Source: Eubacterium sp. ER2 (GTDB taxonomy: Bacteria > Bacillota > Clostridia > Lachnospirales > Lachnospiraceae). Taken from it: a stretch of 46,042 nucleotides of DNA. The DNA lies in assembly GCF_000765215.1 (NCBI RefSeq), contig NZ_JPJE01000049.1, positions 1 to 46,042 of the forward strand, read 5' to 3'. Shown here one piece after another: positions 116 to 16,455 of the stretch; position 1 is the first letter of the stretch, and the number at the start of each line of letters is the position of its first letter. A program made the position numbers and the translations under genes. The notes beneath the pieces are model-generated. The model ran no database searches, was not told the origin of the DNA, and was given only the letters and a program-made list of their open reading frames with translations.

Positions 116-820
116 TTAATCCTGCAGAAGATTGTACCAGATATCCACAGAATTTTTTACACAGTTGTCAATTTCTGAATATGCCTTCTTTTGGATAATG
201 TTATAGATTTTTGTGTGTGCTTCATACGCATACTCCCCCCTCTGGTGTGAATGTGTATGGGAGATGGATGCGCGCAGCGAATGAATGACAAAATAATATA
301 TTCTGGCAGCAAGAGGGTTGCAGCATGCTTCACCGAGCAGATGATGGAAATCAATATCATTCTGAAAAATCTTTTCTGTGTCAGCGTTGGATCCGATCAG
401 TGCTTCCAGTTCAGAAAGATTGTCTTTCATGGCTTTCCTGTATTCTTCATTTTCATCATAATGATCAATGACAAGCTCGATAATATCTTTTTCAAATATC
501 TGGCGGAATTCATAAAGGTTTTCCACATCCGGGTTGGTCACAAAGTATGTGAACAGGAGTGAATCCAACAGATTGCTGTCCGGCGATTCACTCACATACG
601 TGCCGTTGCCAACCCGGATATCAACTAGTCCAAAAGCGGACAGTATTTTCATTGCTTCTCTGACAGACCCCCTGCTCACATTCAGGCCTTCCGAGATTTC
701 CAGTTCATTTGGAAGCTTGTCCCCGGGAAGCAGCTTCTTGTCCATTAACAGCTGCTTAATGCTGTTAACTACAATGTCAACGGCGGATTCTCGTTTTGAG
801 GCTTGAAATAAATTACTCAT
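116..820 (-). CDS. FadR-type GntR regulator (wHTH + FCD)
   Basis: Transcription factor of 234 residues, normal for the FadR subfamily. Residues about 10-75 form the GntR winged helix (LPNELEISEGLNVSRGSVREA is the recognition region). Residues about 90-225 are an all-helical FCD ligand domain with likely metal ligands in DIDFHHLLGEA and the C-terminal SHTHSH/EAH stretch. Such proteins usually bind a sugar acid or other small acid and repress a neighbouring catabolic operon. The gene diverges from the transketolase operon, and repeats of ACATTAAAC lie between them, so it very likely controls that operon and itself. The ligand cannot be read from the sequence. Confidence 0.9.
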   Translation of the reverse strand: MSNLFQASKRESAVDIVVNSIKQLLMDKKLLPGDKLPNELEISEGLNVSRGSVREAMKILSAFGLVDIRVGNGTYVSESPDSNLLDSLLFTYFVTNPDVENLYEFRQIFEKDIIELVIDHYDENEEYRKAMKDNLSELEALIGSNADTEKIFQNDIDFHHLLGEACCNPLAARIYYFVIHSLRASISHTHSHQRGEYAYEAHTKIYNIIQKKAYSEIDNCVKNSVDIWYNLLQD

Positions 821-883
821 ATATTTACTATCCTTTCAATTATTAATGTGCAAGCATAAAAATCCCAATTTACTATATTGGAG

Positions 884-912
884 ATTATAACAAATAATTC
901 ATTAAACGTCAA
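884..912 (-). promoter_or_regulatory. Promoter of the gntR gene with overlapping half-operator
   Basis: On the minus strand TTGACG (912-907) and TATAAT (889-884) are separated by exactly 17 bp. The -35 box lies inside an imperfect palindrome (901-921) that contains a near copy (TCATTAAAC, 899-907) of the ACATTAAAC repeat found at the divergent promoter. This fits autoregulation. Confidence 0.7.
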
Positions 913-941
913 ACGATTAATAGTTATTTTGCTAAAATCTA

Positions 942-970
942 TTGACTTTTCAAAGGAAATATAGTATACA
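942..970 (+). promoter_or_regulatory. Promoter of the transketolase operon
   Basis: TTGACT (942-947) and TATACA (965-970) are spaced 17 bp apart. The -10 box overlaps the first 3 bp of the 25-bp palindrome at 968-992, so a bound repressor would block RNA polymerase. Confidence 0.8.
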
Positions 971-1012
971 TTAAACATCAGATGTTTAATGTTAATACGA
1001 CGAACATTAAAC
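968..1012 (+). promoter_or_regulatory. Operator array: three ACATTAAAC half-sites
   Basis: The 9-mer ACATTAAAC occurs at 968-976 (+), 984-992 (-) and 1004-1012 (+). The first two make a perfect 25-bp palindrome (12-bp arms, centre at 980). The second and third make another inverted repeat (984-993 with 1003-1012). Position from the -10 box into the leader is typical of a repressor site. The neighbouring GntR protein is the obvious ligand, by inference. Confidence 0.75.
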
Positions 1013-1059
1013 CGAACATAATCATCATCCGATAAAATTTATATGAGGAGGATAGTTCC

Positions 1060-1881
1060 ATGAAGGTAGAAGAATTAAAAAGAATAGCAGATCATCTTCG
1101 ATTGACGGCAGTGGAAATGGTCTATAAGGGAAAGGATGGTCATCCTGGCCCGGCGTTATCTATTGCGGATATCATTGCAGTTCTCTATTTTGATGAGATG
1201 AGGATAGATCCGGAAAATCCTGAGTGGGAGGACCGGGACAGATTTGTACTCTCCAAAGGGCATGCCTGCCCTATCTACTATGCGGCTCTGTCTGAAAAGG
1301 GATACTTTGGGGAAAAGATAAAGGACTTTAAGCTGAGAGCGCTGGGAAGTATGTTTCAGGGGCATCCGGTCATGAACAAGACCAGAGGTGTTGATATGAC
1401 ATCAGGTTCCCTGGGAAACGGTATTGCTATTGCGGCGGGGATGGCAATCGCAGGAAAGTACAGGAAAAAGGATTACAATGTATTCGTCATTACAGGTGAC
1501 GGAGAACTGCAGGAAGGCATCTGCTGGGAGGGAATCAATACAGCGGCAGCTCATCATTTAGACAATCTGATTGTATTTGTGGATAAAAACGGATGGCAGA
1601 GTGGAGGATCTGTTGTGGACACCATTGGTTCCAACAATGTGAGAGAGCGTTTTGAGGTTTTTGGATGGCACGCCCAGGAAATAGACGGACATAATATCGA
1701 GGAAATCAAGGCAGCTATCCAGACTGCAAAGCAGGCGAAGGGGAAACCAAGCGTAATCGTCTGCGACTGTATCAAAGGAAAGGGACTTCCCTTTATGGAG
1801 AACAATAATGCCTGGCACAAAGGCGTGCCCTCAGAAGAACAGTATAAAGAGGCTGTGAAAATTTTAGGAGGTGAATCGTAA
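1060..1881 (+). CDS. Transketolase-like enzyme, N-terminal (TPP-binding) subunit
   Basis: The pyrophosphate-binding half of a split transketolase, 273 residues. The thiamine diphosphate motif runs from GDGELQEG (146-153) to the closing KNG (176-178). Histidines of the active site lie in DGHPG (26-30), SKGHA and FQGHP. AGGAGG precedes the ATG. The stop overlaps the start of the C-terminal subunit by 1 nt (TAATG), so the two halves should be made in equal amounts. Split transketolases include pentose phosphate enzymes and special ones such as apulose-4-phosphate transketolase (AptAB). The context, with a GntR regulator and an ApnO-like gene, favours a catabolic enzyme over housekeeping. Confidence 0.93.
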   Translation: MKVEELKRIADHLRLTAVEMVYKGKDGHPGPALSIADIIAVLYFDEMRIDPENPEWEDRDRFVLSKGHACPIYYAALSEKGYFGEKIKDFKLRALGSMFQGHPVMNKTRGVDMTSGSLGNGIAIAAGMAIAGKYRKKDYNVFVITGDGELQEGICWEGINTAAAHHLDNLIVFVDKNGWQSGGSVVDTIGSNNVRERFEVFGWHAQEIDGHNIEEIKAAIQTAKQAKGKPSVIVCDCIKGKGLPFMENNNAWHKGVPSEEQYKEAVKILGGES

Positions 1882-2816
1882 TGGCAGAATTTAAAGGTAC
1901 AAGAGAAGCGTTTGCACAGGCGTTGATTGATCTGGCAGAAACAGACAATAAAATTATGTTTGTATCCCCGGATTCATTAAAAGCAATGCGTGCCACAAAA
2001 TTTGCGGAGCTTCATCCGGAACAGTATGTGGAGGTGGGCATTTCAGAGCAGGGAGCTGTGGACACAGCGGCAGGACTGGCGGCGGCGGGGCTTCTTCCAT
2101 TTGTAGGTACATACGCGGGATTTATGACTATGCGCGCATGTGAACAGATGAGAACATTTGTGGCTTACCCCAATCTGAATGTGAAATTTGTGGGAATTAA
2201 CTCCGGATTACTTGGAGGAGAACGGGAAGGGGTCACACATCAGTTTTACGAGGATCTGGGAATTCTCTCCAATATTCCCGGCTTTACCATTCTCACTCCG
2301 GCGGATGCGGCTCAGACATACCACGCTGTAAAGCTGGCGGCAGAAATCAATGGCCCTGTATATGTGAGGGCAGGAAGCGGAAGAGAGGCCGATATATATG
2401 ACAGGGAAACGCCATTCAGTCTGGATGGAATCCGGATTTTAAAGGATTACGGAACAGACACGCTTCTCCTTTCGAGTGGCTTTGTGCTTGACCGGGTGCT
2501 GGCGGCAGCGGAGCTCCTCAAAGGGCAGGGCATCAATGTTATGGTTGGAGATGTGAATATCCTTTACGGAAAGCATCAGGAGAAAATTCTGGAGGCTATC
2601 TCAAAAGTGACTCGTATTGTTACAGTGGAAGATCACAATATAAATGGCGGGCTTGGTGCCTATATCAGCAGGCTGGTGACGGAGAATGATCCAAAGAAGG
2701 TAAAAAGGATTGGACTTACTACATTTGGTGAATCAGGGCCCGCAAAAGAGCTGGCGGATGCATACGGATTCTCACCGGAAGCCATTGCCGAGACAGTGGT
2801 AAAAAATATGAAATAA
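1881..2816 (+). CDS. Transketolase-like enzyme, C-terminal (Pyr + C domain) subunit
   Basis: Partner of the preceding gene, 311 residues. The pyrimidine-binding domain (about 1-165) carries the catalytic glutamate in VGISEQG (E56), which activates the thiamine aminopyrimidine ring. The C-terminal domain (about 185-305) has the usual transketolase fold, with the VTVEDHNINGGLG stretch. The two subunits transfer a two-carbon ketol unit between a ketose and an aldose, normally phosphates. The aldose-phosphate specificity cannot be read here. Translational coupling to the N-terminal half is evident from the TAATG overlap. Confidence 0.93.
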   Translation: MAEFKGTREAFAQALIDLAETDNKIMFVSPDSLKAMRATKFAELHPEQYVEVGISEQGAVDTAAGLAAAGLLPFVGTYAGFMTMRACEQMRTFVAYPNLNVKFVGINSGLLGGEREGVTHQFYEDLGILSNIPGFTILTPADAAQTYHAVKLAAEINGPVYVRAGSGREADIYDRETPFSLDGIRILKDYGTDTLLLSSGFVLDRVLAAAELLKGQGINVMVGDVNILYGKHQEKILEAISKVTRIVTVEDHNINGGLGAYISRLVTENDPKKVKRIGLTTFGESGPAKELADAYGFSPEAIAETVVKNMK

Positions 2817-2845
2817 ACGATAAGTGGGAAAAGAGGAAAATAGTT

Positions 2846-3709
2846 ATGGAAAAAATTGTTGTAAGTGTAATCGGAGCAGGCGGGAAAATGGGAACAAGGA
2901 CCAGCAATAATCTGGCCAAAAAGCAGGACAGGTTTGAGCTGCTTCTGGTAGAAGCCTCTGAGGCAGGGATAAAAAGCATTAAGGACCGGGGCTTTGAGCC
3001 GGTTCCGGTGGAGGAAGCGCTGGCAAAATCAGACGTAGTTGTTTTTGCGGTGCCTGATACCCTTATAGGGAAGCTGTCAGAAGTCTATGTGCCCCAGCTG
3101 AAGCCGGGAACAGGCTTTATTATCCTGGATCCGGCGGCGGCAGTGGCAAGAGAGCTGACGCTGAGAGAAGACTGTACATTTGGCGTTGCGCATCCCTGTC
3201 ATCCATCCTACTTTCTTGATCAGGATACGTATGAGGCGCGCCAGGACCGCTTTGGAGGGTGTGGCGGCAAACAGGATATTGTTATGTCGAAGATCCAGGG
3301 AGATGACGCAAAATTTGAACAGTGCGTAGAGGTGGCGAAACAGATGTATGCGCCAGTGGAGCATGCCTATGTCATGACATCTGAGCAGATAGCATTTCTG
3401 GAGCCGACTCTGGTAGAGCTGCTTGGAGCTACCTGTCTCTACGCAATGGCGGAAACGGTTGACGAGGCTGTAAGGAGAGGAATCCCCAAAGAGGCCGCCG
3501 TCTCGTTTCTGACAGGACATATCTATAATCTGTCAGCAAACTTTCTGGGATACATTCCCGGAAACCCGCCTGTATCTGACGCGTGTAAGGTGGCGATATC
3601 TCTGGGGAACAGACTAGTCATGAGAGAGAACTGGAAAGAAATCTGGAAGGATGACGTGCTTCACAAGGTCATTGCCACCATGCTCCATCCGGATAATCCT
3701 CAGATTTAG
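2846..3709 (+). CDS. ApnO-like / 6PGDH-superfamily NAD(P)-dependent oxidoreductase
   Basis: A 287-residue enzyme with an N-terminal Rossmann motif (VIGAGGKMG, residues about 8-16) and the helical 6PGDH-like C-terminal domain. As I remember the family, it resembles D-apionate oxidoisomerase ApnO: shared features are GAGGKMG, AVPDTLIGK, HPCHPS, the FGG segment, YAPV and the late SDACKVAI. ApnO oxidises and rearranges D-apionate to 3-oxo-isoapionate. True 6-phosphogluconate dehydrogenases are longer and have other substrate motifs. A branched or C4-C5 sugar acid is therefore a likely substrate, but related enzymes may act on other acids. It lies 29 bp after the transketolase subunit in the same operon. 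Confidence 0.75.
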   Translation: MEKIVVSVIGAGGKMGTRTSNNLAKKQDRFELLLVEASEAGIKSIKDRGFEPVPVEEALAKSDVVVFAVPDTLIGKLSEVYVPQLKPGTGFIILDPAAAVARELTLREDCTFGVAHPCHPSYFLDQDTYEARQDRFGGCGGKQDIVMSKIQGDDAKFEQCVEVAKQMYAPVEHAYVMTSEQIAFLEPTLVELLGATCLYAMAETVDEAVRRGIPKEAAVSFLTGHIYNLSANFLGYIPGNPPVSDACKVAISLGNRLVMRENWKEIWKDDVLHKVIATMLHPDNPQI

Positions 3710-3720
3710 GAGGAATTGGC

Positions 3721-4689
3721 ATGAAAATAGTTGTACTTGACGGTTATACACTGAATCCCGGTGATCTGGACTGGAAAGGATTAGAAGAAATAGGGGAGTG
3801 TATCATCTACGACCGGACTTCTCTGACAGATGTGGAAGAGGTGATCGAAAGGATTGGCGACGCCCAGATTGTATACACCAATAAGACACCGCTTCCGGCG
3901 GAAGTGTTTGAACGCTGCAGCAATATAAAATTTGTTGGAGTTCTGGCTACAGGATATAATGTGGTGGATGTCAGAGCTGCACGTGAAAAGAATATACCGG
4001 TTGCCAACATTCCTACATACGGCACAGCAGCAGTCGGGCAGTTTGCCATTGGGCTTCTGCTGGAGATATGCCACCATATAGGACATCACAATGAGGCGGT
4101 CCATAATGGGAAATGGACAGACAATCCCGACTGGTGCTTTTGGGACTATCCATTGATCGAACTGGACGGTAAGACGATGGGAATCATTGGCTATGGGAGA
4201 ATCGGGCAGACAACAGGAAGAATTGCCCAGGCTTTGGGGATGAATGTGCTGGCTTATGATTCATACAAAAATGAAGCGCTGGAGTCACCCTCCTGTAAGT
4301 ATTCTTCATTGGACGAGTTGCTGAGAAATTCAGATGTGATCGCCCTGCACTGCCCCCTCTTTCCAGAGACAGAAAAAATAATTAACAGACAGAGCATTGG
4401 CAAGATGAAAGAGGGAGTTATCATTATAAACAATTCCCGGGGGCCTCTCATTGATGAGGAAGCTCTTGCAGAGGCGCTGCAGGAAGGAAAAGTAGCAGCT
4501 GCGGGCCTAGACGTTGTATCTGATGAACCCATACACAGCGACAACCCGCTGCTGAAAGCGCCGAACTGCATTATAACACCCCATATATCATGGGCGCCGA
4601 AGGAATCCAGAAAAAGACTTATGGACATAGCGGTTTCAAATCTTCAGTCTTTCCTGGAGGGAGCGCCCCAGAATGTTGTAAATAGATAG
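3721..4689 (+). CDS. D-isomer-specific 2-hydroxyacid dehydrogenase (glycerate/hydroxypyruvate reductase type)
   Basis: A 322-residue NAD(P)-dependent dehydrogenase. The nucleotide motif is GYGRIG (157-162). The catalytic triad is R240 (NNSRGPLID), E269 (SDEP) and H288 (TPHIS). Length and pattern match glycerate dehydrogenase/hydroxypyruvate or glyoxylate reductases, which interconvert 2-oxo and D-2-hydroxy acids. An AGGAGG-like site (AGGAGGAATTGGC) lies just upstream, 11 bp after the ApnO-like gene, and a terminator follows. It is thus the last operon gene, and probably reduces or oxidises a short hydroxyacid formed by the pathway. Confidence 0.88.
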   Translation: MKIVVLDGYTLNPGDLDWKGLEEIGECIIYDRTSLTDVEEVIERIGDAQIVYTNKTPLPAEVFERCSNIKFVGVLATGYNVVDVRAAREKNIPVANIPTYGTAAVGQFAIGLLLEICHHIGHHNEAVHNGKWTDNPDWCFWDYPLIELDGKTMGIIGYGRIGQTTGRIAQALGMNVLAYDSYKNEALESPSCKYSSLDELLRNSDVIALHCPLFPETEKIINRQSIGKMKEGVIIINNSRGPLIDEEALAEALQEGKVAAAGLDVVSDEPIHSDNPLLKAPNCIITPHISWAPKESRKRLMDIAVSNLQSFLEGAPQNVVNR

Positions 4690-4724
4690 TGGACAGTTTA
4701 TTTCTGTTTCAAAGCAATCAACCA

Positions 4725-4772
4725 AAAGTACAGCCCCGGATCAAGGATTTCCGGAGCTGTACTTTCTTATTT
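4725..4772 (+). terminator. Terminator of the transketolase operon
   Basis: Arms 4725-4740 and 4750-4765 pair over about 16 bp with one mismatch (AAAGTACAGC with GCTGTACTTT at the base), followed by a T-rich stretch. Confidence 0.8.
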
Positions 4773-4812
4773 CCTTTAACTTCCAATTACACACATAATG
4801 TATAATGTGACC

Positions 4813-4841
4813 TTGAAAAGCACTTTATATAGTGGTATGAT
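4813..4841 (+). promoter_or_regulatory. Promoter of nrdJ
   Basis: TTGAAA (4813-4818) and TATGAT (4836-4841) with a 17-bp spacer, just upstream of the nrdJ ribosome site. The leader is too short for a cobalamin riboswitch. Confidence 0.65.
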
Positions 4842-4876
4842 GTTATATGCTATTAATCAAAAAGGAGAAACGTGAA

Positions 4877-7168
4877 ATGACTGTAGAAGAATGGCTGGGC
4901 GAGGACAATCGGCTCGGCACAGACATATGGACTAAAAAGTACTGTAATGAAGGCGAGAGCTTTGACGAGTGGGTTGGGCGTATCAGCGGAGGAAATGAAG
5001 AGATCGCCCAGTATATCCGGGAAAAAAAGTTCCTGTTCGGCGGCCGGATCCTGTCCAACAGGGGATTGGACAAGGAGGGCAGGAAGGTAACCTACTCTAA
5101 CTGCTATGTGGTGGATCCTCCGGAGGATAATATTGAGAGCATCTTCGACTGTGCCAAAAAGCTGGCCCGGACCTACAGCTATGGCGGTGGCTGCGGGGTG
5201 GATATCTCAAAATTAAGCCCCAGAGGGGCACGCATCAACAATGCGGCAAAGGAGACAAGCGGCTCCGTGTCCTTTATGGAGCTGTATTCCCTTGTGACGG
5301 CTCTGATCGGACAGAACGGAAGACGCGGAGCGCTGATGATCTCCATCGACTGTTCCCACCCGGATGTGGAGGAGTTCATTGACCTGAAGACCGATCTGGA
5401 GAAGGTCACAAAGGCCAATATTTCCGTGCGCATCCACGAGGACTTCATGGAGGCGGTAAAGAAAAATGAGGACTATCTCCTTCACTATACAAGAGAGGCT
5501 ACAGGCCAGGTCATCGAGAAGCAGATCAACGCCAGAGAGTTGTTCCGCAAGATCGCGGAGACAAACTGGGACTATGCGGAGCCGGGTGCTCTGTTCTGGG
5601 ATCGCATCGAGGGATGGAACCTCCTGAGCAACACAAAGGATTTCTCCTACGCAGGAGTCAATCCCTGTGCTGAGGAGCCTTTGCCGGCAGGCGGAAGCTG
5701 TCTTCTTGGCAGCATCAACCTGTCCGCCTTTGTAAACGACCCATTTACGGATCACGCTCAGTTTGACTTTGAGGGACTGAAGCACTGCGTGGAGGTATCT
5801 GTAGGAGCTCTGAACGAAGTGCTGGAGGAGGGACTTCCTCTTCATCCCCTGGAGGAGCAGCAGGAGAGCGTGGCCCGGTGGCGTCAGATCGGACTTGGCA
5901 TCATGGGACTTGCCGACTGCCTCATCAAGCTGGGATTGGCTTACGGCGAGGAGGACGCTGTGGCCATGTGCGACAAGATCGGATTTGCCATGGCGGATTC
6001 AGCCATTGCCGCTTCCGCAAAGCTGGCAAAAGAGAAGGGCGCCTACCCGGCCTGTGAGATTAACGAGGTCATGAGCACCCCCTATTTCCTGGCAAACACG
6101 TCAGAGAAGACAAGGGAACTGGTGAAAAAGTACGGCCTTCGCAACTCCCAGCTTCTGACTATCGCCCCCACAGGAACCCTGTCCACTATGCTGGGCATTT
6201 CCGGCGGCATTGAGCCTGTCTACGCAAACTACTATGAGAGAAAGACCGAGTCTCTTCACGGGACAGACGTCTACTATAAGGTGTACACAAAGATCGTGGA
6301 GACCTATATGAAGCAGTTTGGCATCAAGAGCGATGCGGAGCTGCCGGATTACTTTGTGACGGCCATGACTCTGGACTACCGCCAGAGGATTGACATGCAG
6401 TCCGTATGGCAGCAGCACATTGACGCTTCTATCAGTTCTACGGTAAATGTGCCCAACGGCTTCACCGTGGAGGAGACGGAAGGTCTCTATATGTACGCCT
6501 ATGAGAAGGGTCTGAAGGGAATCACCATTTTCCGCGACGGCTGCAAGAGGATTGGTATCCTCAATACAGACCTGAAGAAGGAGAAGAAGGAGGTCACCGC
6601 AGGCGAGGGCCTGAAGAGAGGCGAGATCCTTCTTGTGACAGACGACGTGGTGGGCAAGAAGCGCAAGCTGGTGACAGGCTGCGGAAGCCTGCACTGTATC
6701 GCCCTGTTTGACCCCAACACAGGCGCCCTTCTGGAGACATACCTGAGCAAGGGCTCCACAGGCGGCTGCAACAACTTCATGGTGGGACTGTCCCGTATGA
6801 TCTCCATCAGCGCAAGGGGCGGCATCAGCATTGAGACCATTGTGGACCAGCTCAACTCCAGCGGCTCCTGCCCCTCCTACACAGCCAGAAGAGTGACCAG
6901 GAAGGACACCAGTAGAGGGGCCTGCTGTCCCATGGCAGTGGGAAATGCTCTCATGGATATGTACAATGAGATGCAGGCTGAGCTGGCAGCAAAGGAGAAC
7001 TGCGAGGCGGAAAAGCCGGTGAAGAAGGTAAAGAAGGTTCCAAAGCCAAAGGCAGTCTCCACAGAGCTGGACAAGGACAAGATGTACTGCCCGGAGTGCG
7101 GAGAGCCTCTGATCTTTGAAGAGGGATGTAACATCTGCAAGAGCTGCGGATGGAGCAAATGCCACTAA
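4877..7168 (+). CDS. nrdJ: Adenosylcobalamin-dependent (class II) ribonucleotide reductase
   Basis: Makes deoxyribonucleotides using a cobalamin-generated thiyl radical, with no oxygen requirement; cytosolic. The ATG at 4877 has AAAGGAG 10 bases before it, so it is preferred over an in-frame ATG at 4847; length is 763 residues. Active-site residues are C76 (YSNCYV), the N262-P-C264-A-E266 thiyl/glutamate motif and C275 (GGSC), the redox partner 11 residues on, as in class II enzymes. Residues about 575-690 form a TSCPD domain, followed by a lysine-rich linker and a C-terminal zinc ribbon (CPECGEP, CKSCGWSKC). It is monocistronic with its own promoter and terminator. Confidence 0.96.
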   Translation: MTVEEWLGEDNRLGTDIWTKKYCNEGESFDEWVGRISGGNEEIAQYIREKKFLFGGRILSNRGLDKEGRKVTYSNCYVVDPPEDNIESIFDCAKKLARTYSYGGGCGVDISKLSPRGARINNAAKETSGSVSFMELYSLVTALIGQNGRRGALMISIDCSHPDVEEFIDLKTDLEKVTKANISVRIHEDFMEAVKKNEDYLLHYTREATGQVIEKQINARELFRKIAETNWDYAEPGALFWDRIEGWNLLSNTKDFSYAGVNPCAEEPLPAGGSCLLGSINLSAFVNDPFTDHAQFDFEGLKHCVEVSVGALNEVLEEGLPLHPLEEQQESVARWRQIGLGIMGLADCLIKLGLAYGEEDAVAMCDKIGFAMADSAIAASAKLAKEKGAYPACEINEVMSTPYFLANTSEKTRELVKKYGLRNSQLLTIAPTGTLSTMLGISGGIEPVYANYYERKTESLHGTDVYYKVYTKIVETYMKQFGIKSDAELPDYFVTAMTLDYRQRIDMQSVWQQHIDASISSTVNVPNGFTVEETEGLYMYAYEKGLKGITIFRDGCKRIGILNTDLKKEKKEVTAGEGLKRGEILLVTDDVVGKKRKLVTGCGSLHCIALFDPNTGALLETYLSKGSTGGCNNFMVGLSRMISISARGGISIETIVDQLNSSGSCPSYTARRVTRKDTSRGACCPMAVGNALMDMYNEMQAELAAKENCEAEKPVKKVKKVPKPKAVSTELDKDKMYCPECGEPLIFEEGCNICKSCGWSKCH

Positions 7169-7201
7169 ATAGAATAATATAACAATTAAAGGAAGCTGCA
7201 C

Positions 7202-7236
7202 AGCGGCCGGACTCGTAAATGAGCCGGCCGCTTTTT
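7202..7236 (+). terminator. Terminator of nrdJ
   Basis: AGCGGCCGG (7202-7210) pairs with CCGGCCGCT (7224-7232), followed by TTTTT. Confidence 0.85.
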
Positions 7237-7278
7237 ATGACCTTTTTTCGTTAAAAAATCTACTTCCGGAAAATGGGA

Positions 7279-7306
7279 TTACAACAGGCGGCAGGGGTGA
7301 TATAAT
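7279..7306 (+). promoter_or_regulatory. Promoter of the hydrogenase operon
   Basis: Extended -10 element TGATATAAT (7298-7306) with a weak TTACAA (7279-7284) as -35, spacer 16 bp. Confidence 0.5.
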
Positions 7307-7349
7307 AAACAAATCTGTGGTAGGAAAACATTGAGAGGAGAAAGAGAAA

Positions 7350-9182
7350 ATGAGCAGACTAGAGATTAAGGCTCCCAACAGAGCCAGGATTGTCATGGAA
7401 GGTCTCTACAAGGATCTGGAGAGACGAATCGAGTCCAGCCCTCCGGGACTGTGTCCCGTGGACATGTCCAGAGCCTTCCTGGAGCTGTGCCACGCCCAGA
7501 CCTGCGGGAAATGCGTGCCCTGCAGGATCGGACTTGGACAGCTGAACCATTTTATCAAGGACGTGCTGGACGGAAAGGCCACCATGAAGACACTGGACTA
7601 CATGGAGGAGACAGCCCTCTCCATTATGGAGTCGGCGGACTGCGCCATCGGCTACGAGGCGGCCCGCATGGTCTACAAGGGACTGATGGGCTACCGGGAT
7701 GACTATATTGAACATATCAGGAACGGCAGATGTACCTGCAGCTACAACCAGCCTGTGCCCTGCGTGGCCCTCTGTCCGGCTCATGTGGATGTGCCGGGAT
7801 ACATAGCCCTGATCGGGGAGGGGCGCTATGCGGACGCGGTGCGGCTGATCCGCAAGGACAACCCGTTCCCTACCACATGCGGGTTTATCTGTGAGCATCC
7901 CTGCGAGGCCAGATGCCGCAGGAATATGGTGGACGATTCGGTCAATATCCGGGGACTGAAGCGGATGGCGGCAGACTATGCAGGTGAGGTGGATCCGCCG
8001 GCCTGCGCTCCGTCTACAGGGAAACGGATTGCCGTGCTGGGCGGCGGCCCCGGGGGCCTGAGCGCTGCCTACTATCTGCAGCTCATGGGACATCAGGCTG
8101 TGGTCTACGAGATGCTGCCAAAGCTGGGCGGCATGCTCCGGTACGGCATCCCCAACTACCGTCTTCCAAAGGAGCGGCTGGAGGAGGATATTGACTGTAT
8201 TTTAAAGACAGGAGTGCAGGTAAAGTACGGCATGAAGATTGGCCAGGACATCACCATCCAGCAGCTCAGGAAGGAGTACGACGCAGTGCTCATCACTATC
8301 GGCGCCAGCACGGACAAGAAGCTGGGCCTGGAGGGAGAGGACGCACAGGGCGTGCTCTCGGCTGTGCAGTTCCTGCGGAATGTAGGAAAGAACATCATCA
8401 TGGATCTGACCGGCAAGGAGGTGGCTGTCGTTGGCGGGGGAAATGTGTCCATGGACGCAGTCCGCACGGCAAAGCGTCTGGGAGCCAGGAAGGTCAGCAT
8501 TGTGTACCGCCGCCGGAGGGCGGATATGACCGCCCTGCCCCAGGAGATCGAGGGGGCCATCGCGGAGGGCGTGGAGCTGCAGACGCTGAAGGCGCCATCA
8601 TCCATTGATGTGGATGAGGCGGGCCAGGTCAGAGGGCTCTATGTGACGCCCCAGATGGTCAGCGCCATCCGGGACGGCAGAGCCAGCATCCGCCCCACAG
8701 GGGAGGAGGACGTCTACATCCCCTGCGACGTGCTCATCGTGGCCATTGGGCAGAACATTGAGACCCGCCACTTTGAGGAGGCAGGCATCCCGGTGGAGAG
8801 AGGAAAGATACGCACAAAGAGCACGGGAACCTTTGAGAATATGCCGGGTGTATTTGCGGGGGGAGACTGCGCCAGCGGCCCTGCCTCTGTCATCACGGCC
8901 ATTGCTGCCGGCAAGGTGGTGGCGGCCAATATTGACGAGTATCTGGGCTATCACCATGAGATCTCCTGTGACGTGGACATCCCAGAGCCGGACCTTACGG
9001 ATCGCTCCCCCTGCGGAAGAGTCAATCTGACAGAGCGGGAGGCCTGTCTGCGGGTGAAGGACTTTGAAGGCGTGGAAAACTGCATGACAGAAAATGAGGC
9101 AAAGCAGGAGGCGGGACGCTGCCTGCGGTGCGATCACTTCGGTTACGGCATATTCAAAGGAGGGCGCGAGACGATATGGTAA
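7350..9182 (+). CDS. NuoF-tail/GltD-type NAD(P) oxidoreductase, hydrogenase partner
   Basis: A 610-residue iron-sulfur flavoprotein. Residues about 35-110 match the [4Fe-4S] tail of NuoF/HydB subunits (C52, C55, C58 in TCGKCVPCR, and C98). Residues about 125-200 carry the two-cluster cysteine pattern of glutamate synthase small subunit GltD (C138, C142, C177, C181, C185, C189). Then follow the FAD site (GGGPGGLSAA, about 231-240) and the NADPH site (GGGNVSMDA). The FMN/NADH half of NuoF is absent. Its frame overlaps the [FeFe] hydrogenase gene by 7 bp, so the pair should form a complex passing electrons between NAD(P)H and hydrogen or ferredoxin. It is not glutamate synthase, since no large subunit is present. 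Confidence 0.88.
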   Translation: MSRLEIKAPNRARIVMEGLYKDLERRIESSPPGLCPVDMSRAFLELCHAQTCGKCVPCRIGLGQLNHFIKDVLDGKATMKTLDYMEETALSIMESADCAIGYEAARMVYKGLMGYRDDYIEHIRNGRCTCSYNQPVPCVALCPAHVDVPGYIALIGEGRYADAVRLIRKDNPFPTTCGFICEHPCEARCRRNMVDDSVNIRGLKRMAADYAGEVDPPACAPSTGKRIAVLGGGPGGLSAAYYLQLMGHQAVVYEMLPKLGGMLRYGIPNYRLPKERLEEDIDCILKTGVQVKYGMKIGQDITIQQLRKEYDAVLITIGASTDKKLGLEGEDAQGVLSAVQFLRNVGKNIIMDLTGKEVAVVGGGNVSMDAVRTAKRLGARKVSIVYRRRRADMTALPQEIEGAIAEGVELQTLKAPSSIDVDEAGQVRGLYVTPQMVSAIRDGRASIRPTGEEDVYIPCDVLIVAIGQNIETRHFEEAGIPVERGKIRTKSTGTFENMPGVFAGGDCASGPASVITAIAAGKVVAANIDEYLGYHHEISCDVDIPEPDLTDRSPCGRVNLTEREACLRVKDFEGVENCMTENEAKQEAGRCLRCDHFGYGIFKGGRETIW

Positions 9183-10903
9183 ATCTGACAATTGACGGGA
9201 AATCCATTTCCGTAAAAGAAAATACGACAATCATGGAGGCTGCCAGACAGAACGGCATCCCCATACCCAGCCTCTGCTATCTGAAGGGCATCAACGAGAT
9301 CGCAGCCTGCCGTGTGTGCGTGGTGGAGCTGGAGGGGAAGGAGAGGCTCATCACATCCTGCAACAACGTGGCTGAGGAGGGCATGGTGATCTTTACCAAC
9401 AGCCCCAAGGTGCGCAAGGACAGGAGGACCAATGTGGAGCTGATCCTGTCCCAGCACGACTGCCAGTGCGTCACCTGCGCCCGCAGCGGCTGCTGCAGCC
9501 TGCAGAAGATCGCCAATGACCTGAACATCATCGACATCCCCTACCGCCAGGAGATCGACAGGCGGGAGTGGAACCAGGATTTCCCTCTGATCCGGGACTC
9601 CGCAAAGTGTATCAAGTGCATGCGGTGCATCCAGATCTGTGACAAGGTGCAGAAGCTGTCTGTGTGGGATGTGGAGGGGACGGGATCCCGGACCACAGTC
9701 AACGTGTCCGGACATATGAATATCGAGGACGCCCCCTGCTCCCTCTGCGGCCAGTGCATCACCCACTGCCCGGTGGGCGCCCTGCGGGAGCGGGACGACA
9801 CAGAGAAGGTGTGGGACGCCATGGCAGACGAGAAGAAGACCGTGGTGGTCCAGGTGGCGCCTGCTGTCCGCACATCCTGGGGTGAGCAGACGGGACTGGC
9901 CCCGGAGGAGGCCTCTGTAGGGAAGATCATGGATGCCCTGAAGCGAATGGGGGCGGACTATGTGTTTGACACTGTCTTCTCCGCGGACCTGACCATCATG
10001 GAGGAGGCCAACGAGTTCGTCAGGAGATTTACGGCGGGAGAGCTGAAAAGCTATCCCATGTTCACCTCCTGCTGCCCGGGCTGGGTACGGTTTGCCAAAT
10101 CCCAGTACCCCCACCTTGTGAAATATCTCTCCACCGCCAAGTCGCCCCAGCAGATGTTCGGCGCGGTCATGAAGACCTATTTCGCGGAGAAGATCGGAAA
10201 GCGGCCGGAGGACATTTACACGGTATCTGTCATGCCCTGCGTGGCCAAGAAGGCAGAGCGGGAGCAGGAGCTTTTCTATGAGGAATACGCGGGCCACGAT
10301 GTGGACGCGGTCATCACCACGAGAGAGCTGGTGAAAATGATGCGCTCCGCCCACATCAGCCCGGAGACTCTCCGGGATATACCGGGGGACTCTCCCATGC
10401 AGGAGGGGACCGGCGCCGGCGTCATCTTCGGCGTCACAGGGGGCGTCATGGAGGCGGCCCTGCGCACAGCCTACGCAGTGATCACAGGGGAAAATCCGGA
10501 CGCGGACGCCTTTGAGGCTGTCAGAAGCCCCGGATTTAACGCAAATGAGGGCGTGTCGGAGGCGGAGCTCACCATCAACGGCATCCGGATCCGCACTGCT
10601 GTGGTGAGCGGACTTGGAAACACCAGGACTCTTCTGGACAGGATGGAGAAGGGGGAGGTGCAGTACGACTTTGTGGAAGTCATGGCCTGCCCCGGCGGGT
10701 GCGTGGGAGGGGGCGGACAGCCCATCCACGACGGGCAGGAGCTGGCCTTTGACAGAGGCAGGCAGCTCTACCGGCTTGACAGCGACTGCAAAATCCGTTT
10801 TTCTCATGAAAATCCGGATATCCGGAAGCTCTATGAGGAGTACATGGGGCAGCCATTGTCCCATAAAGCTCACATGCTGCTCCACACAGAGCACGGAATG
10901 TAG
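9176..10903 (+). CDS. [FeFe] hydrogenase, group A, multi-cluster
   Basis: Catalyses reversible proton reduction in the cytosol. The start at 9176 (AAAGGAGG 12 bases upstream, 7-bp overlap with the previous gene) gives 575 residues. It has an N-terminal [2Fe-2S] domain (C34, C45, C48, C62) and the His-Cys3 [4Fe-4S] ligands H94, C98, C101, C107. Two further [4Fe-4S] motifs follow (C145/148/151/155 and C188/191/194/198). The H-cluster has L1 TSCCPGW (C300), L2 MPCVAKKAE (C355) and L3 ACPGGCVGGG (C505, C509). Cluster positions match clostridial CpI almost residue for residue. Pairing with a GltD-like protein fits the class called A2 in HydDB, as I recall it. The maturases HydEFG are not in this window. 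Confidence 0.95.
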   Translation: MVNLTIDGKSISVKENTTIMEAARQNGIPIPSLCYLKGINEIAACRVCVVELEGKERLITSCNNVAEEGMVIFTNSPKVRKDRRTNVELILSQHDCQCVTCARSGCCSLQKIANDLNIIDIPYRQEIDRREWNQDFPLIRDSAKCIKCMRCIQICDKVQKLSVWDVEGTGSRTTVNVSGHMNIEDAPCSLCGQCITHCPVGALRERDDTEKVWDAMADEKKTVVVQVAPAVRTSWGEQTGLAPEEASVGKIMDALKRMGADYVFDTVFSADLTIMEEANEFVRRFTAGELKSYPMFTSCCPGWVRFAKSQYPHLVKYLSTAKSPQQMFGAVMKTYFAEKIGKRPEDIYTVSVMPCVAKKAEREQELFYEEYAGHDVDAVITTRELVKMMRSAHISPETLRDIPGDSPMQEGTGAGVIFGVTGGVMEAALRTAYAVITGENPDADAFEAVRSPGFNANEGVSEAELTINGIRIRTAVVSGLGNTRTLLDRMEKGEVQYDFVEVMACPGGCVGGGGQPIHDGQELAFDRGRQLYRLDSDCKIRFSHENPDIRKLYEEYMGQPLSHKAHMLLHTEHGM

Positions 10904-10919
10904 GTTAAATCTTTGTAAA

Positions 10920-10940
10920 ATGGTAGAATTTCTACACCAT
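10920..10940. promoter_or_regulatory. Inverted repeat upstream of the RpiR gene
   Basis: The element GTAGAATTTCTAC is a 13-bp palindrome flanked by ATGG and CCAT. It lies between the hydrogenase stop and the RpiR start and could be an autoregulatory operator. No convincing -35/-10 pair could be assigned. Confidence 0.35.
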
Positions 10941-11019
10941 CCTCGGGCGGTCAGTGCTAAAATGAGACATTGAAAAAAGTCGAAAAAACGGAGCGCTGCT
11001 CCGCGGGGAGGAGAGAACT

Positions 11020-11907
11020 ATGTGGGAGACGGAACTGAGGCTCTGCTATGCCATGCTGAGCAATAATCAAAAGAAAGCGGCGGATATACTGCTGGAAGAC
11101 CCGGACGCCGCCCGGACCATGACCGTGCGGGAACTGGCCGGGCAGGCCGGGGTGGGACAGGCCACTATCATCCGGATGCTGCAGGCTGCTGGATATGAGG
11201 GCTGGTCCGCTTTTCAGCGGGAGGTCTGGCAGGAAAAGGGAAAGCAGGAAAGAGGAATGCATGAGGCCGCTGCCAGGGAACCGGCTTCCGGAGGAAAGAA
11301 ATCCCCGGCAAAGCGAGAATACAGAAAATACGAGGCCGTCTTCCAGATTATCAGGGATGATCTCACCATGATATCGGACATGGCGAAACATCTGGACCTG
11401 AGACAGCTGGAGGAGGTTGTGAAGGTCATAAAAAAGGCCAAGATCATAGACGTGTACGGGACGGACAATTCCGCCAACGCGGCGGCGGAGCTGTCCGGCA
11501 GGATGCTCCACCTGGGGCTCACCAGCAGGAACTACTCGGACCTGTTCTTCCAGAAGGTCAGCGCCGGTCATCTGGGGAAAAAGGATGTGGCTATCGGATT
11601 TTCCATATCCGGAGAGACCCAGGCTGTCATAGACTCCCTGACCGCGGCCAGGCAGGCGGGAGCTGTGACGGTGGCGGTGACGGGAGATCAGGTGTCCGGC
11701 CTGGCCCAGATCGCGGACTACATCTTTATCACTCCCACCATCCATTTCTCGGAGATCAGCCGGTGGATCTCCTCCCGCATCTCCCAGATGGCCTTTGTGG
11801 ACGCCCTTTGCGGTGCCATCATGGTCAGCGACCCGGACCGCTTTGACCAGATGCTGCTACAGTCCACGAAGGAGTTCGAACAGGATATGCACAGGAAAGA
11901 TGTGTAG
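11020..11907 (+). CDS. RpiR-family regulator (HTH + SIS)
   Basis: A 295-residue regulator with an N-terminal HTH (about 1-80: TVRELAGQAGVGQATIIRM) and a SIS phosphosugar-binding domain (about 130-265: VYGTDNSANAAAELSGRM, FSISGETQAVIDSL). A charged, alanine-rich linker joins them (about 80-110). SIS domains sense sugar phosphates or related phosphorylated metabolites. It precedes the MATE/ABC operon, separated by a terminator, so it may sense a phosphorylated compound handled there. The strong GGGAGGAGAG site fixes the start. Confidence 0.9.
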   Translation: MWETELRLCYAMLSNNQKKAADILLEDPDAARTMTVRELAGQAGVGQATIIRMLQAAGYEGWSAFQREVWQEKGKQERGMHEAAAREPASGGKKSPAKREYRKYEAVFQIIRDDLTMISDMAKHLDLRQLEEVVKVIKKAKIIDVYGTDNSANAAAELSGRMLHLGLTSRNYSDLFFQKVSAGHLGKKDVAIGFSISGETQAVIDSLTAARQAGAVTVAVTGDQVSGLAQIADYIFITPTIHFSEISRWISSRISQMAFVDALCGAIMVSDPDRFDQMLLQSTKEFEQDMHRKDV

Positions 11908-11927
11908 AGCAATATAAAACGCAGTAG

Positions 11928-11966
11928 AAGGACTTTTCGGAGCATTGCTCCGGAAGGTCCTTTTTT
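11928..11966 (+). terminator. Terminator of the RpiR gene
   Basis: Arms 11928-11943 and 11947-11962 (AAGGAC...GTCCTT, with GGAGC/GCTCC at the tip) form a long stem with a 3-nt loop, ending in TTTTTT (11961-11966). Confidence 0.85.
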
Positions 11967-12089
11967 CATGCGGATTTACGGGAAAGAGCTTTACACAGAC
12001 TTTACATTTTTTTGAAGATTTCTTAAAACTCATTGTTTATAATCCGGGTTGTGTCCGAGAGGACCGAAGAGAAAGGAACCAAGACACCC

Positions 12090-13382
12090 ATGTTCAGACG
12101 AATTTTAAAACAGGCTCTCCCCACCATGATCGCTTTTACCATGTCAGGTATGTACAGCGTGGTGGACGGACTATTTGTGGGAAAGGCGGCGGGGGACACA
12201 GGACTTGCGGCCATCAATATCGCCTGGCCCATCCCGGCTGTGATCACAGCCCTGGGAATCGGGATCGGCACAGGGGGAAGCGTCCTCTATTCCAATATGC
12301 TGGGAAAGGGTGACCGGGACGGCTGCAGGAGAATGTTCAATACAACTGTGACATTCCTGGCGCTGGCAGGCATCCTCCTGTCGGTCATCCTCTTTGCGGC
12401 GAGGGATCCCCTCCTTCGCATCTTCGGAGCAGAGGGGGATGTGATGGAGCAGGCACAGCAGTACACCGGCATCATCATCGCCGGGGGCGTGCTGCAGGTG
12501 TGCGGCACAGGGATCACGCCTCTCCTTCGGAACATGAACCTGTCTTTTGCGGCCATGATCAGCATGGTGACCGGGTTTGTGGTGAACATCGCAGTCAACT
12601 ACTATCTGATGTTTCCCCTGGGAATGGGGATACGGGGCGCGGCCTTCGGAACAGTGACCGCCCAGCTCGTGGTGCTGGCCATCAGCATCCTTGTCCTTGC
12701 CAGGGCCTACAAGGAGAAGGCAAGGCCTGCTCTTGAGAGGAGGCTGGCGGCCGGGATCTGCCGCAGCGGCATCACCGCCTTCGGCGTCTCCCTGGCGCCC
12801 ACCGTGGCCCTCATTTTCACCAACTGGCAGTGCCTCCGGTACGGGGGAAACGCAGCGGTGGCCTGCTATGCCGTCATCTCCTACATCGTCTTTCCGGTAC
12901 AGTACCTGCTGACCGGCATAGGAGACGGAGTGCAGCCCCTCCTGAGCTACTACAACGGAGCGGGGCGGCCTGTGGAGCTTGGACAGGTGAAACGGATTGC
13001 CCGCATAGGAGCGGGCGTGCTGGGAGCAGTGACTATGGCGGCGACATGGATCTGCACGCCCTACCTTGCCCGGTGGTTTGGCCTCTCCGAGGAGGCGGCC
13101 GCATTTTTCGGAACAGGCATGAGGATCAGCGCTCTTGCTTTCCTGGTGACAGGATTTGCAAAATTTAATCTCTCTTATCTGAACGCGGTGCTGAGGGCCA
13201 GGCTGGCTGTGATCCTCACATTTGCGGAGAGCCTGGTCGTATCACCTGTATACCTGTTCCTGATCCCGGCAATTACCGGGATGACCGGCATATGGATCTC
13301 GCTGCCGGCCACAGCGGTCACCATGCTCGTGATTTACGGAATGATAAACAGAAAGGAAATGAGTTATGAGAAAAAAGATTAG
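12090..13382 (+). CDS. MATE-family multidrug/metabolite efflux transporter
   Basis: An integral membrane antiporter of 430 residues with about 12 hydrophobic segments in two MatE repeats. It opens FRRILKQALPTM-, followed by the TM1 region with MYSVVDGLFVGK. It exports cationic drugs or metabolites in exchange for Na+ or H+. The ATG at 12090 has GAAAGGA upstream; a longer reading from TTG 12033 adds residues with no membrane character and is less likely. Its last 17 bp overlap the first permease gene of the ABC operon, which suggests translational coupling and a shared transcript. A TATAAT box at 12038-12043 lacks a good -35. Confidence 0.88.
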   Translation: MFRRILKQALPTMIAFTMSGMYSVVDGLFVGKAAGDTGLAAINIAWPIPAVITALGIGIGTGGSVLYSNMLGKGDRDGCRRMFNTTVTFLALAGILLSVILFAARDPLLRIFGAEGDVMEQAQQYTGIIIAGGVLQVCGTGITPLLRNMNLSFAAMISMVTGFVVNIAVNYYLMFPLGMGIRGAAFGTVTAQLVVLAISILVLARAYKEKARPALERRLAAGICRSGITAFGVSLAPTVALIFTNWQCLRYGGNAAVACYAVISYIVFPVQYLLTGIGDGVQPLLSYYNGAGRPVELGQVKRIARIGAGVLGAVTMAATWICTPYLARWFGLSEEAAAFFGTGMRISALAFLVTGFAKFNLSYLNAVLRARLAVILTFAESLVVSPVYLFLIPAITGMTGIWISLPATAVTMLVIYGMINRKEMSYEKKD

Positions 13383-14247
13383 CTTTCGAAAAGTGGGGAC
13401 TGTGTGGCTGTTTGTCCTGCCCGCCCTGATCCCCCTGATCGTATTCTGGATTTACCCCATACTCCGGTCTGTGTATATCAGCTTTACAGACTGGGACTAC
13501 ATGTCGCCAACATACAATTTTGTATTTCTTGACAACTTTATAGCGCTCTTCAAGGATGCACGTTTCTACGATGCCCTGTGGAACACCATCGTGTTCACAG
13601 TGGGGACCCTGATCCCCACTATTGTCCTGGGACTGCTCCTGGCGCTGCTGATGCAGAAGGCGTTCAAGGGAAGCGGGATCGTGAAGTTTATTCTGTTTTC
13701 CCCGTGGATCACGCCTACAGTGGCAATTTCCATTGTGTGGACCTGGATCTATGATCCGGACACCGGAATTGCAAACGCAGTGCTGGAATTTCTGCATCTT
13801 CCGGCACTGCAGTGGATAAAAAGTTCCGAGACAGCCATGCTGGCGGTGATCATTGTGACTGTCTGGAAGAGCCTGGGATACGCTATGATCTTCTACCTGT
13901 CGGCTCTGGAGAAAGTTCCGGGAGAGCTGTACGAGGCAAGCGGCCTTGACGGGGCGAAGAGCTGGCAGAGATTCCGGGATGTGACGCTGCCGTGTATCTC
14001 CCCCACCACATTTTTCCTGGTGATCATTACAATGGTCAGTTCCCTGCAGGCCTATGATCAGATACAGATCCTGACCCAGGGCGGCCCGTCGGGAAGCACA
14101 AGGACGCTTCTGTATATGTACTATCAGCTTGGATTTGAGGAATTTAATATGGGACAGGCTACAGCGGTGGCTATTGTCATGATCATTCTGACGGTGCTCC
14201 TGTCAGCCATACAGTTCACAGCATCCAAAAAATGGGTCCACTATTAG
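13366..14247 (+). CDS. ABC sugar/organophosphate permease, MalF/UgpA type
   Basis: A 293-residue inner-membrane permease with six predicted membrane helices, first at about 12-35. The cytoplasmic EAA loop reads ELYEASGLDGAKSWQRF, the contact for the ATPase. This belongs to the CUT1 family (MalF/UgpA-like). It overlaps the MATE gene by 17 bp and is followed 15 bp later by the second permease. With that partner, a lipoprotein and an ATPase in the same operon it forms a complete importer. Confidence 0.92.
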   Translation: MRKKISFRKVGTVWLFVLPALIPLIVFWIYPILRSVYISFTDWDYMSPTYNFVFLDNFIALFKDARFYDALWNTIVFTVGTLIPTIVLGLLLALLMQKAFKGSGIVKFILFSPWITPTVAISIVWTWIYDPDTGIANAVLEFLHLPALQWIKSSETAMLAVIIVTVWKSLGYAMIFYLSALEKVPGELYEASGLDGAKSWQRFRDVTLPCISPTTFFLVIITMVSSLQAYDQIQILTQGGPSGSTRTLLYMYYQLGFEEFNMGQATAVAIVMIILTVLLSAIQFTASKKWVHY

Positions 14248-14262
14248 AAAAGAGGGAAAAAT

Positions 14263-15099: not shown

Positions 15100-15161
15100 A
15101 ACCCTCTTACATATATAAATGAAAACAAAGGAAAGAAAAAGAAGCAAAAAGGAGAAATATC

Positions 15162-16454: not shown

Positions 16455-16455
16455 A

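Follow-up and report, generated by a model that had tools for sequence, protein, structure and literature searches.

A conserved split-transketolase operon in Eubacterium sp. ER2 and its relatives, predicted to degrade a branched sugar acid

We analysed a window of 46,042 bases, the complete contig C50 of the 3.27-Mb draft genome of Eubacterium sp. ER2 (Lachnospiraceae; sequence upstream of base 1 lies outside the contig), for a small operon encoding a transketolase split into two chains (TK-N and TK-C), a relative of the apionate oxidoisomerase ApnO and a D-2-hydroxyacid dehydrogenase, next to a GntR-type regulator (Table 1). Open reading frame (ORF) and Pfam analysis of the window placed the four enzyme genes in tight succession on the plus strand, between 1060 and 4689, with gntR divergent. 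An earlier note on this DNA had described a five-gene set with a shared operator; the ORFs between 116 and 4689 were found as it claimed and the shared operator is real, a perfect palindrome at 971–989, while its range of 820–4772 covers the operon genes but leaves out the body of gntR (116–820).

Table 1. Features of the operon and its control region in the window (ThDP, thiamine diphosphate).
Feature	Position	Strand	Evidence or remark
GntR/FCD regulator, predicted repressor	116..820	-	PF00392 4.5e-16, PF07729 1.4e-11; divergent from operon
gntR promoter-like site TTGACG-17-TATAAT	884..912	-	overlaps degenerate operator copy 902-920 (4 mismatches)
Operon promoter TTGACT-17-TATACA and operator palindrome TTAAACATCAGATGTTTAA	942..989 (promoter 942-970, operator 971-989)	+	pattern match
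TK-N, split transketolase N subunit (ThDP domain)	1060..1881	+	Transketolase_N PF00456 1.7e-66; PDB 6yak 2.5e-76
TK-C, split transketolase C subunit (pyrimidine and C-terminal domain)	1881..2816	+	Transket_pyr PF02779 3.2e-33, Transketolase_C PF02780 2.1e-20
ApnO-like NAD-dependent oxidoisomerase, predicted apionate to 3-oxoisoapionate	2846..3709	+	PGDH_C PF16896 6.7e-63; PDB 5t57 9.8e-66
D-2-hydroxyacid dehydrogenase, predicted hydroxypyruvate reductase	3721..4689	+	2-Hacid_dh PF00389, 2-Hacid_dh_C PF02826 2.5e-61; PDB 5tx7 4.5e-107
Inverted repeat 3' of dehydrogenase gene, possible terminator	4724..4765	+	by eye; terminator scan made no call there

A pattern-based scan yielded 35 relatives of the locus, and genes were counted on tblastn maps of the resulting 36 loci, window included. 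TK-N, TK-C and the ApnO-like gene occurred together in 34 of the 36 and were directly adjacent on one strand in 32; such constancy shows that these genes are not neighbours by chance. The dehydrogenase was present in 23 loci, and six of the 13 lacking it end no more than 1.3 kb downstream of ApnO (L030, L032, L033, L034, L039 and L050), the contig of L039 stopping inside an apparent dehydrogenase start. A GntR homologue accompanied 24 loci. Tripartite ATP-independent periplasmic (TRAP) transporters were found in 16 loci, ribose-type ATP-binding cassette (ABC) systems in five (L036 has both), PanF-like transporters in two and a major facilitator superfamily (MFS) transporter in L043 and L044, with two kinds of ABC system across the loci. 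A glycerate kinase gene (PF02595) lay in seven of the 36 and directly followed the dehydrogenase gene in six (L024–L028 and L043). Distance correlations were 0.90 between the transketolase chains, 0.67–0.70 between ApnO and transketolase, and 0.58 between ApnO and the TRAP transporter.

In a separate draw of 397 Lachnospiraceae genomes, the ApnO-like protein (at least 36% identity) was found in seven, a further match in genome G271 (24.5 bits) being excluded as a presumed distant Rossmann relative. The reverse search with TK-C recovered the same seven genomes at 53% identity or more, the next transketolases reaching at most 42%, and a rough hypergeometric value for seven of seven in 397, calculated by hand, was about 3e-15, which is overstated because of shared ancestry. 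The seven carriers span six genera, and each of the six foreign ones has genes for both transketolase chains and the dehydrogenase within 11 kb (two of these loci, L074 and L075, duplicate L019 and L048 in sequence). A census of 398 genomes across the phylum returned the own genome as the sole strong match; the other 12 scored 19–26 bits and were likewise taken as distant Rossmann relatives.

The ApnO-like protein matches PF16896 over its whole length and carries an N-terminal KARI_N-like match, which is the domain layout of ApnO. It is 46% identical to PDB 5t57, and a Cupriavidus necator N-1 plasmid gene matches 5t57 without a difference along the aligned stretch; after it come a gene for a RuBisCO-like protein (RLP, PF00016) and OiaK (761 bits, NCBIfam cut-off 700). 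Identity was 42% to a Rhizobium etli protein encoded in a neighbourhood with an ABC importer, a Gfo/Idh oxidoreductase, OiaX (785 bits against a cut-off of 700) and an OiaK-type kinase, which at 476 bits stays short of its own cut-off of 700. Beside the Labrenzia ApnO gene lie an RLP and a kinase gene, and ABC and Gfo/Idh genes lie near that of Sinorhizobium meliloti, where no RLP is listed within 9 kb (L062). When the proteobacterial ApnO rows (L059, L060, L061, L062 and 5t57; L060 equals 5t57, so that four are distinct, and L077 was excluded) were aligned with 37 transketolase-linked rows, 59 columns were invariant in the former and conserved in at least 95% of the latter, among them K14, R18, R107, D109, H116, H119, D134, Q143, E186, E191, H225 and D245. 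By these comparisons the protein groups with ApnO; a position outside it, with a known unrelated activity, would have refuted the proposal of the earlier note. The protein is placed in a sister group that shares the general machinery of ApnO, and its chemistry is likely identical.

The nearest solved structures of both transketolase chains are those of the Carboxydothermus hydrogenoformans split transketolase (6yak/6yaj). TK-N and TK-C share 44–48% and 33–36% identity, respectively, with that enzyme and with the copies on C14 and C23 of the own genome, compared with 33% and 29% to AptA and AptB, the apulose-4-phosphate transketolase of D-apiose degradation I in Escherichia coli SE15 (ECSF_RS02710/02715; PMC13001218). 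A concatenated tree grouped the 34 ApnO-linked transketolases as one clade (99/99) against five other split transketolases, a small outside sample with some long branches, AptAB above all. AptAB orthology was thus rejected, on an identity below that of ordinary split transketolases and on the position of AptAB outside the clade on a long branch, and the AptAB-type enzyme of the earlier note does not stand. The company of pentose-phosphate genes, the other outcome that would have refuted the same note, was not observed either; the ordinary split transketolase that adjoins a gene of the fructose-6-phosphate aldolase/TalC type is another copy, on C14.

The distinctness of this clade extends to the active site. 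The signature N[SAG]GxxGGEREG[VC]THQ was present in 40 of 40 ApnO-linked C subunits (two are repeats), whereas the compared transketolases read HAG..G[EP]DG.THQ and AptB has N with GPLAS (five outside transketolases; the stretch was unrecovered in L107 and L110, and L109 has no row). The ThDP-binding and N-subunit motifs are canonical and the catalytic THQ histidine is aligned. In transketolases the GEDG aspartate contacts the substrate hydroxyl adjoining the cleaved bond; a donor whose carbon at this place bears a carboxylate but lacks a hydrogen would need such a change of site, the arginine of EREG presumably holding the carboxylate.

D-apionate degradation by ApnO together with OiaC, OiaX or OiaT was reportedly described by Carter et al. 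in 2018, 3-oxoisoapionate being the ApnO product. Three fates of this compound are known: decarboxylation by OiaC, phosphorylation by OiaK followed by the RuBisCO-like decarboxylase OiaX, and OiaK followed by the transcarboxylase/hydrolase OiaT. The loci were searched by tblastn; the queries were two 610-residue apiose-cluster proteins, two Gfo/Idh proteins, OiaX, two RLPs, two OiaK and the FGGY kinase of strain SE15, and none of them had a relative in the 34 transketolase loci. The same held for the xylose-isomerase-like TIM barrel of L046, perhaps of the OiaC kind and unnamed by NCBIfam, which served as stand-in query for OiaC, no authenticated OiaC being used. Relatives of acid-sugar kinases were confined to L046 (28%) and to L077 (25%), an extra family locus. 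For the SE15 FGGY kinase none of the 36 loci gave a match; in the own genome C19 gave one (22.7%). An NCBIfam scan of ten window genes found no OiaC, OiaX, OiaT or OiaK, and the tblastn queries found none either, in a search that took in only the window and those stretches of the own genome that had been fetched. Since none of the known consumers used as queries has a relative in the 34 loci, something else must consume the ApnO product.

The best structure match of the dehydrogenase, 5tx7, was followed by phosphoglycerate and glycerate dehydrogenases/glyoxylate reductases, 2cuk also among its matches, and the own genome holds three other DNA matches to the gene, one of them a fragment. Glycerate kinase is present as a single copy, on C68, where (L009, 6222–9570) it lies about 1.8 kb from a 148-residue fragment of a dehydrogenase paralogue. 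A second paralogue on C19 (L007, 5812–11689) adjoins genes like those for an FGGY kinase, an aldolase and a zinc-type alcohol dehydrogenase, a neighbourhood that, with genes named by eye, looks like another sugar pathway.

From the genes, their conservation and co-occurrence and the operator sequence, we predict the substrate, each reaction, the acceptor and the direction of regulation as follows. The operon probably serves the inducible breakdown of a branched C5 sugar acid. The likeliest is D-apionate, which would be degraded by a transketolase route to D-glycerate. The ApnO-like enzyme would oxidise the acid with NAD+ and shift its hydroxymethyl group, giving 3-oxoisoapionate, HOCH2-CO-C(OH)(CH2OH)-COO-, which would be a natural transketolase donor. 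The split transketolase would then move the HOCH2-CO unit to an aldose phosphate, assumed to be glyceraldehyde-3-phosphate, to yield xylulose-5-phosphate and hydroxypyruvate; given the structure of 3-oxoisoapionate, a transketolase cut beside the carbonyl must leave hydroxypyruvate, and the masses balance by hand (C5H8O6 + C3H7O6P = C5H11O8P + C3H4O4). Hydroxypyruvate would be reduced to D-glycerate by the dehydrogenase, reusing the NADH of the first step, and glycerate kinase, an operon gene in several relatives and encoded elsewhere in this genome, would feed D-glycerate into glycolysis, so that the whole route would be redox-neutral and lose no CO2. Of the assignments that we tried, no other explains why a dehydrogenase and a glycerate kinase accompany an ApnO-like protein and a transketolase. 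The sequence evidence supports the earlier note's suggestion of a different route, with the transketolase removing a C2 unit from what ApnO makes; it also supports the guess that transporter and kinase may lie outside the window, through a transporter operon on C65 that shares the operator and the glycerate kinase on C68, although the kinase of the pathway is probably this glycerate kinase and not a sugar-acid kinase.

The GntR protein would repress the operon by binding the palindrome. This operator is a perfect 19-base palindrome, TTAAACATC-A-GATGTTTAA, directly after a promoter that falls below the rule of a generic promoter scan and was assigned by pattern; the promoter-operator composite matched once in the window and never in 100 shuffles. 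Autoregulation of gntR through the degenerate operator copy is predicted. With up to three mismatches allowed, the palindrome occurred at two places in the whole genome and the reversed-pattern control at none. The second place, C65:4607–4625, has the identical TTGAC[AT]-17-TATACA-operator layout and lies upstream of genes for an amidohydrolase (PF07969, Amidohydro_3), a DUF997 protein, of the YhdT kind, a PanF-like sodium symporter and an EamA transporter (L056, C65 117–4509). This second operon, which GntR would control as well, probably imports and unmasks the substrate, and the compound that it handles could name the true substrate of the pathway.

The link between the two operons recurs in other genomes. 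In Claveliimonas bilis (L041) the four genes of the amidohydrolase operon lie directly upstream of the gntR-transketolase operon, as do the amidohydrolase, DUF997 and symporter genes in Lachnospiraceae 3-2 (L018), where EamA was not found, and in both a perfect composite site precedes each of the two operons. Strain MD308 (the genome of L016) keeps a second composite site (L097, 5141–5251) with a 63-base leader 94% identical to the amidohydrolase leader of L041 and with no operon gene behind it; the next ORF, on the other strand, has no NCBIfam match (E 1e-20), and the stretch contains assembly Ns. It is the probable relic of an amidohydrolase operon. Three genomes thus have regulator, operator and the two operons as one regulon, and a fourth probably keeps a relic of it. 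Operator-like sites with at most four mismatches numbered 36 in 41 fetched loci, versus two with the reversed pattern, and a site with three mismatches is present even in the Accumulibacter locus (L046). Five of six other whole genomes checked have further three-mismatch sites; since the control pattern itself gave one to three matches per genome, only perfect or composite operator matches are trustworthy.

Several observations weigh against D-apionate degradation by this route. Two of the 36 loci (L031 and L046) have the ApnO-like gene without a transketolase, seven (L031, L035, L036, L040, L044, L046 and L047) have room for a dehydrogenase and none, and 29 have no glycerate kinase nearby. 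The distance correlation between ApnO and the dehydrogenase is only moderate (0.52), which fits a dehydrogenase exchanged more often, and the best NCBIfam score of this protein, 308 of 448 bits, lies under every cut-off, so that its hydroxypyruvate role is a prediction. As for the ApnO-like protein, 49 of the 59 conserved columns are also found in 3c24, of unknown function, and discriminate poorly, and 22 columns are fixed differently between the proteobacterial ApnO group and the transketolase-linked group. In the transketolase, alignment to human TKT showed H416 replaced by N, S345 by A and R474 by S, with R318 kept. These four are positions that we take to bind the substrate phosphate; with three of them lost, the acceptor may not be glyceraldehyde-3-phosphate, or the new arginines bind phosphate. 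Relatives of the apiose-cluster Gfo/Idh and 610-residue proteins were missing from the transketolase loci, as said; the lack of Gfo/Idh relatives suggests that many strains may import apionate or its lactone. The entry of the substrate is a weak point, varying by locus between TRAP, two kinds of ABC system, a PanF-like symporter with amidohydrolase, and MFS, and the symporter-amidohydrolase pair does not obviously fit free apionate.

It is on this last point that the best-surviving rival, an unlikely one, is built. It keeps the same logic for another 3-branched hydroxy acid, of pantoate-like shape, which would enter in amide, ester or lactone form through the PanF-like symporter and be freed by the amidohydrolase, the ApnO-like enzyme and the transketolase acting on a relative of 3-oxoisoapionate. 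In its favour, the operator-linked symporter reaches 519 bits where the NCBIfam cut-off for PanF is 328, and adjoins DUF997 and Amidohydro_3, and other loci have other hydrolases, PF04909 or PF04199. However, loci with TRAP (16) or ribose-type ABC systems (5) have no such pair, pantoate offers no carbonyl-CH2OH to a transketolase, and the varied hydrolases (PF07969, PF04909, PF04199) may simply be lactonases.

We consider it improbable that the substrate is a C4 acid, the C3 of erythronate or threonate being oxidised to a 3-oxo-tetronate from which the transketolase would take the C2 unit to leave glyoxylate, and the dehydrogenase making glycolate. That the dehydrogenase also resembles glyoxylate reductases, and that threonate genes (LtnD, OtnK, OtnC) are found near the ApnO-like gene of L046, speaks for it; but the glycerate kinase of seven loci fits a C3 and not a C2 product, kinship to ApnO favours a rearranging enzyme, and the scores of the threonate genes in L046 mark them as a separate, known set. 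There is very little to be said for an AptAB-type apulose-4-phosphate transketolase that by chance stands beside an oxidative ApnO in a mixed apiose cluster: both transketolases are split and AptB, too, has Asn at the human H416 position, but its identity is lower than that of ordinary split transketolases, the FGGY kinase relative is absent from all 36 loci, and co-occurrence with the ApnO-like protein is strict across the 397 genomes. Least credible of all is an ordinary pentose-phosphate transketolase beside an unrelated dehydrogenase pair, which would explain the canonical ThDP-binding and N-subunit motifs but not the separate clade, the altered donor/acceptor site, the ordinary copy with its TalC-type gene already on C14 or the restriction of the TK-C subfamily to seven of 397 genomes.

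Further observations concern the surroundings of these genes. Past the operon, the next five genes of the window encode a ribonucleotide reductase, an NAD(P)-binding protein, an [FeFe] hydrogenase, an RpiR regulator and a MATE protein, and look unrelated to the pathway. A search for TRAP genes in the own genome gave no more than two weak stretches of DctM, both inside a single gene on C17, in a setting unlike this system. In L046, from an Accumulibacter metagenome-assembled genome (1708–11616), the ApnO-like gene (64%) adjoins the TIM barrel, TRAP and threonate genes. In L077 (genome G299, 3559–17501) a divergent ApnO-like gene (36%) is accompanied by a TIM barrel, a Dak1 kinase, a sugar-acid kinase, an HpcH/HpaI aldolase, a TRAP transporter, two dehydrogenases and a transketolase of the GGEREG type; two apionate-like routes may adjoin here. 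Downstream of the dehydrogenase, L019, L022 and L023 carry genes for a GH78-type alpha-L-rhamnosidase (a Pfam match in L019, the same cluster in the other two), a sugar ABC transporter, one of the two kinds noted above, and two-component-like proteins, hinting at a plant glycoside source. Genes of cluster c45 lie in the operon of L027 (14764–16771, with a weak lactate-racemase-like match) and L040 (5716–6954, with no such match), and might provide an acid epimerase reaction in certain strains; a cyclase-type hydrolase (PF04199) is likewise encoded in L027.

Compared with the ApnO/Oia apionate pathways, whose enzyme names are listed in PMC11747546, the cluster keeps the ApnO-type first enzyme, and the rest is replaced. 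The two share the ApnO family, sugar-acid or apiose-type transporters and, in the R. etli and Labrenzia clusters, a NanR-annotated regulator nearby; where those pathways have RLPs (activities of which are described in PMC6302742), OiaK and Gfo/Idh proteins, this cluster has a split transketolase and a hydroxyacid dehydrogenase, joined in some relatives by glycerate kinase. The transketolase resembles AptA/AptB in being split and in serving, as we propose, branched-sugar catabolism, but it differs in identity and active-site motif, and the partners of AptAB in SE15 are an FGGY kinase and an ABC transporter, with no ApnO. It shares the two-chain architecture and ThDP motifs of ordinary split transketolases (C. 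hydrogenoformans, C14, C23), from which it is set apart by the change of H-A-G ... G[EP]DG to N-GGEREG and by a subfamily confined, in the 397-genome draw, to genomes that carry the ApnO-like protein. By description and not by sequence, it can be likened to the sulfo-transketolase of sulfoquinovose degradation in Faecalicatena, of the same gut-anaerobe group, which splits a modified acidic sugar, although that substrate is sulfonated (PMC11659671). A search of an open-access library of papers found no 3-oxoisoapionate transketolase and no paper pairing apiose with hydroxypyruvate reductase; (oxo)isoapionate wording occurred, among the matches listed, only in PMC11747546 and PMC6302742.

We lean, on balance, towards a fourth fate of 3-oxoisoapionate, in which a dedicated 3-oxoisoapionate:glyceraldehyde-3-phosphate glycolaldehydetransferase of gut and rumen anaerobes would form xylulose-5-phosphate and hydroxypyruvate in a redox-neutral, CO2-free manner, the GGEREG arginine replacing the GEDG aspartate and holding the carboxylate. 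If true, this would be a new transketolase reaction, with an acid donor and hydroxypyruvate as product. Anaerobes without a RuBisCO-like enzyme in their clusters would have a route for a branched sugar acid of plant origin, and a function would be assigned to a gene set that we have seen across Lachnospiraceae, Oscillospiraceae, Negativicutes, Christensenellaceae and spirochaetes.

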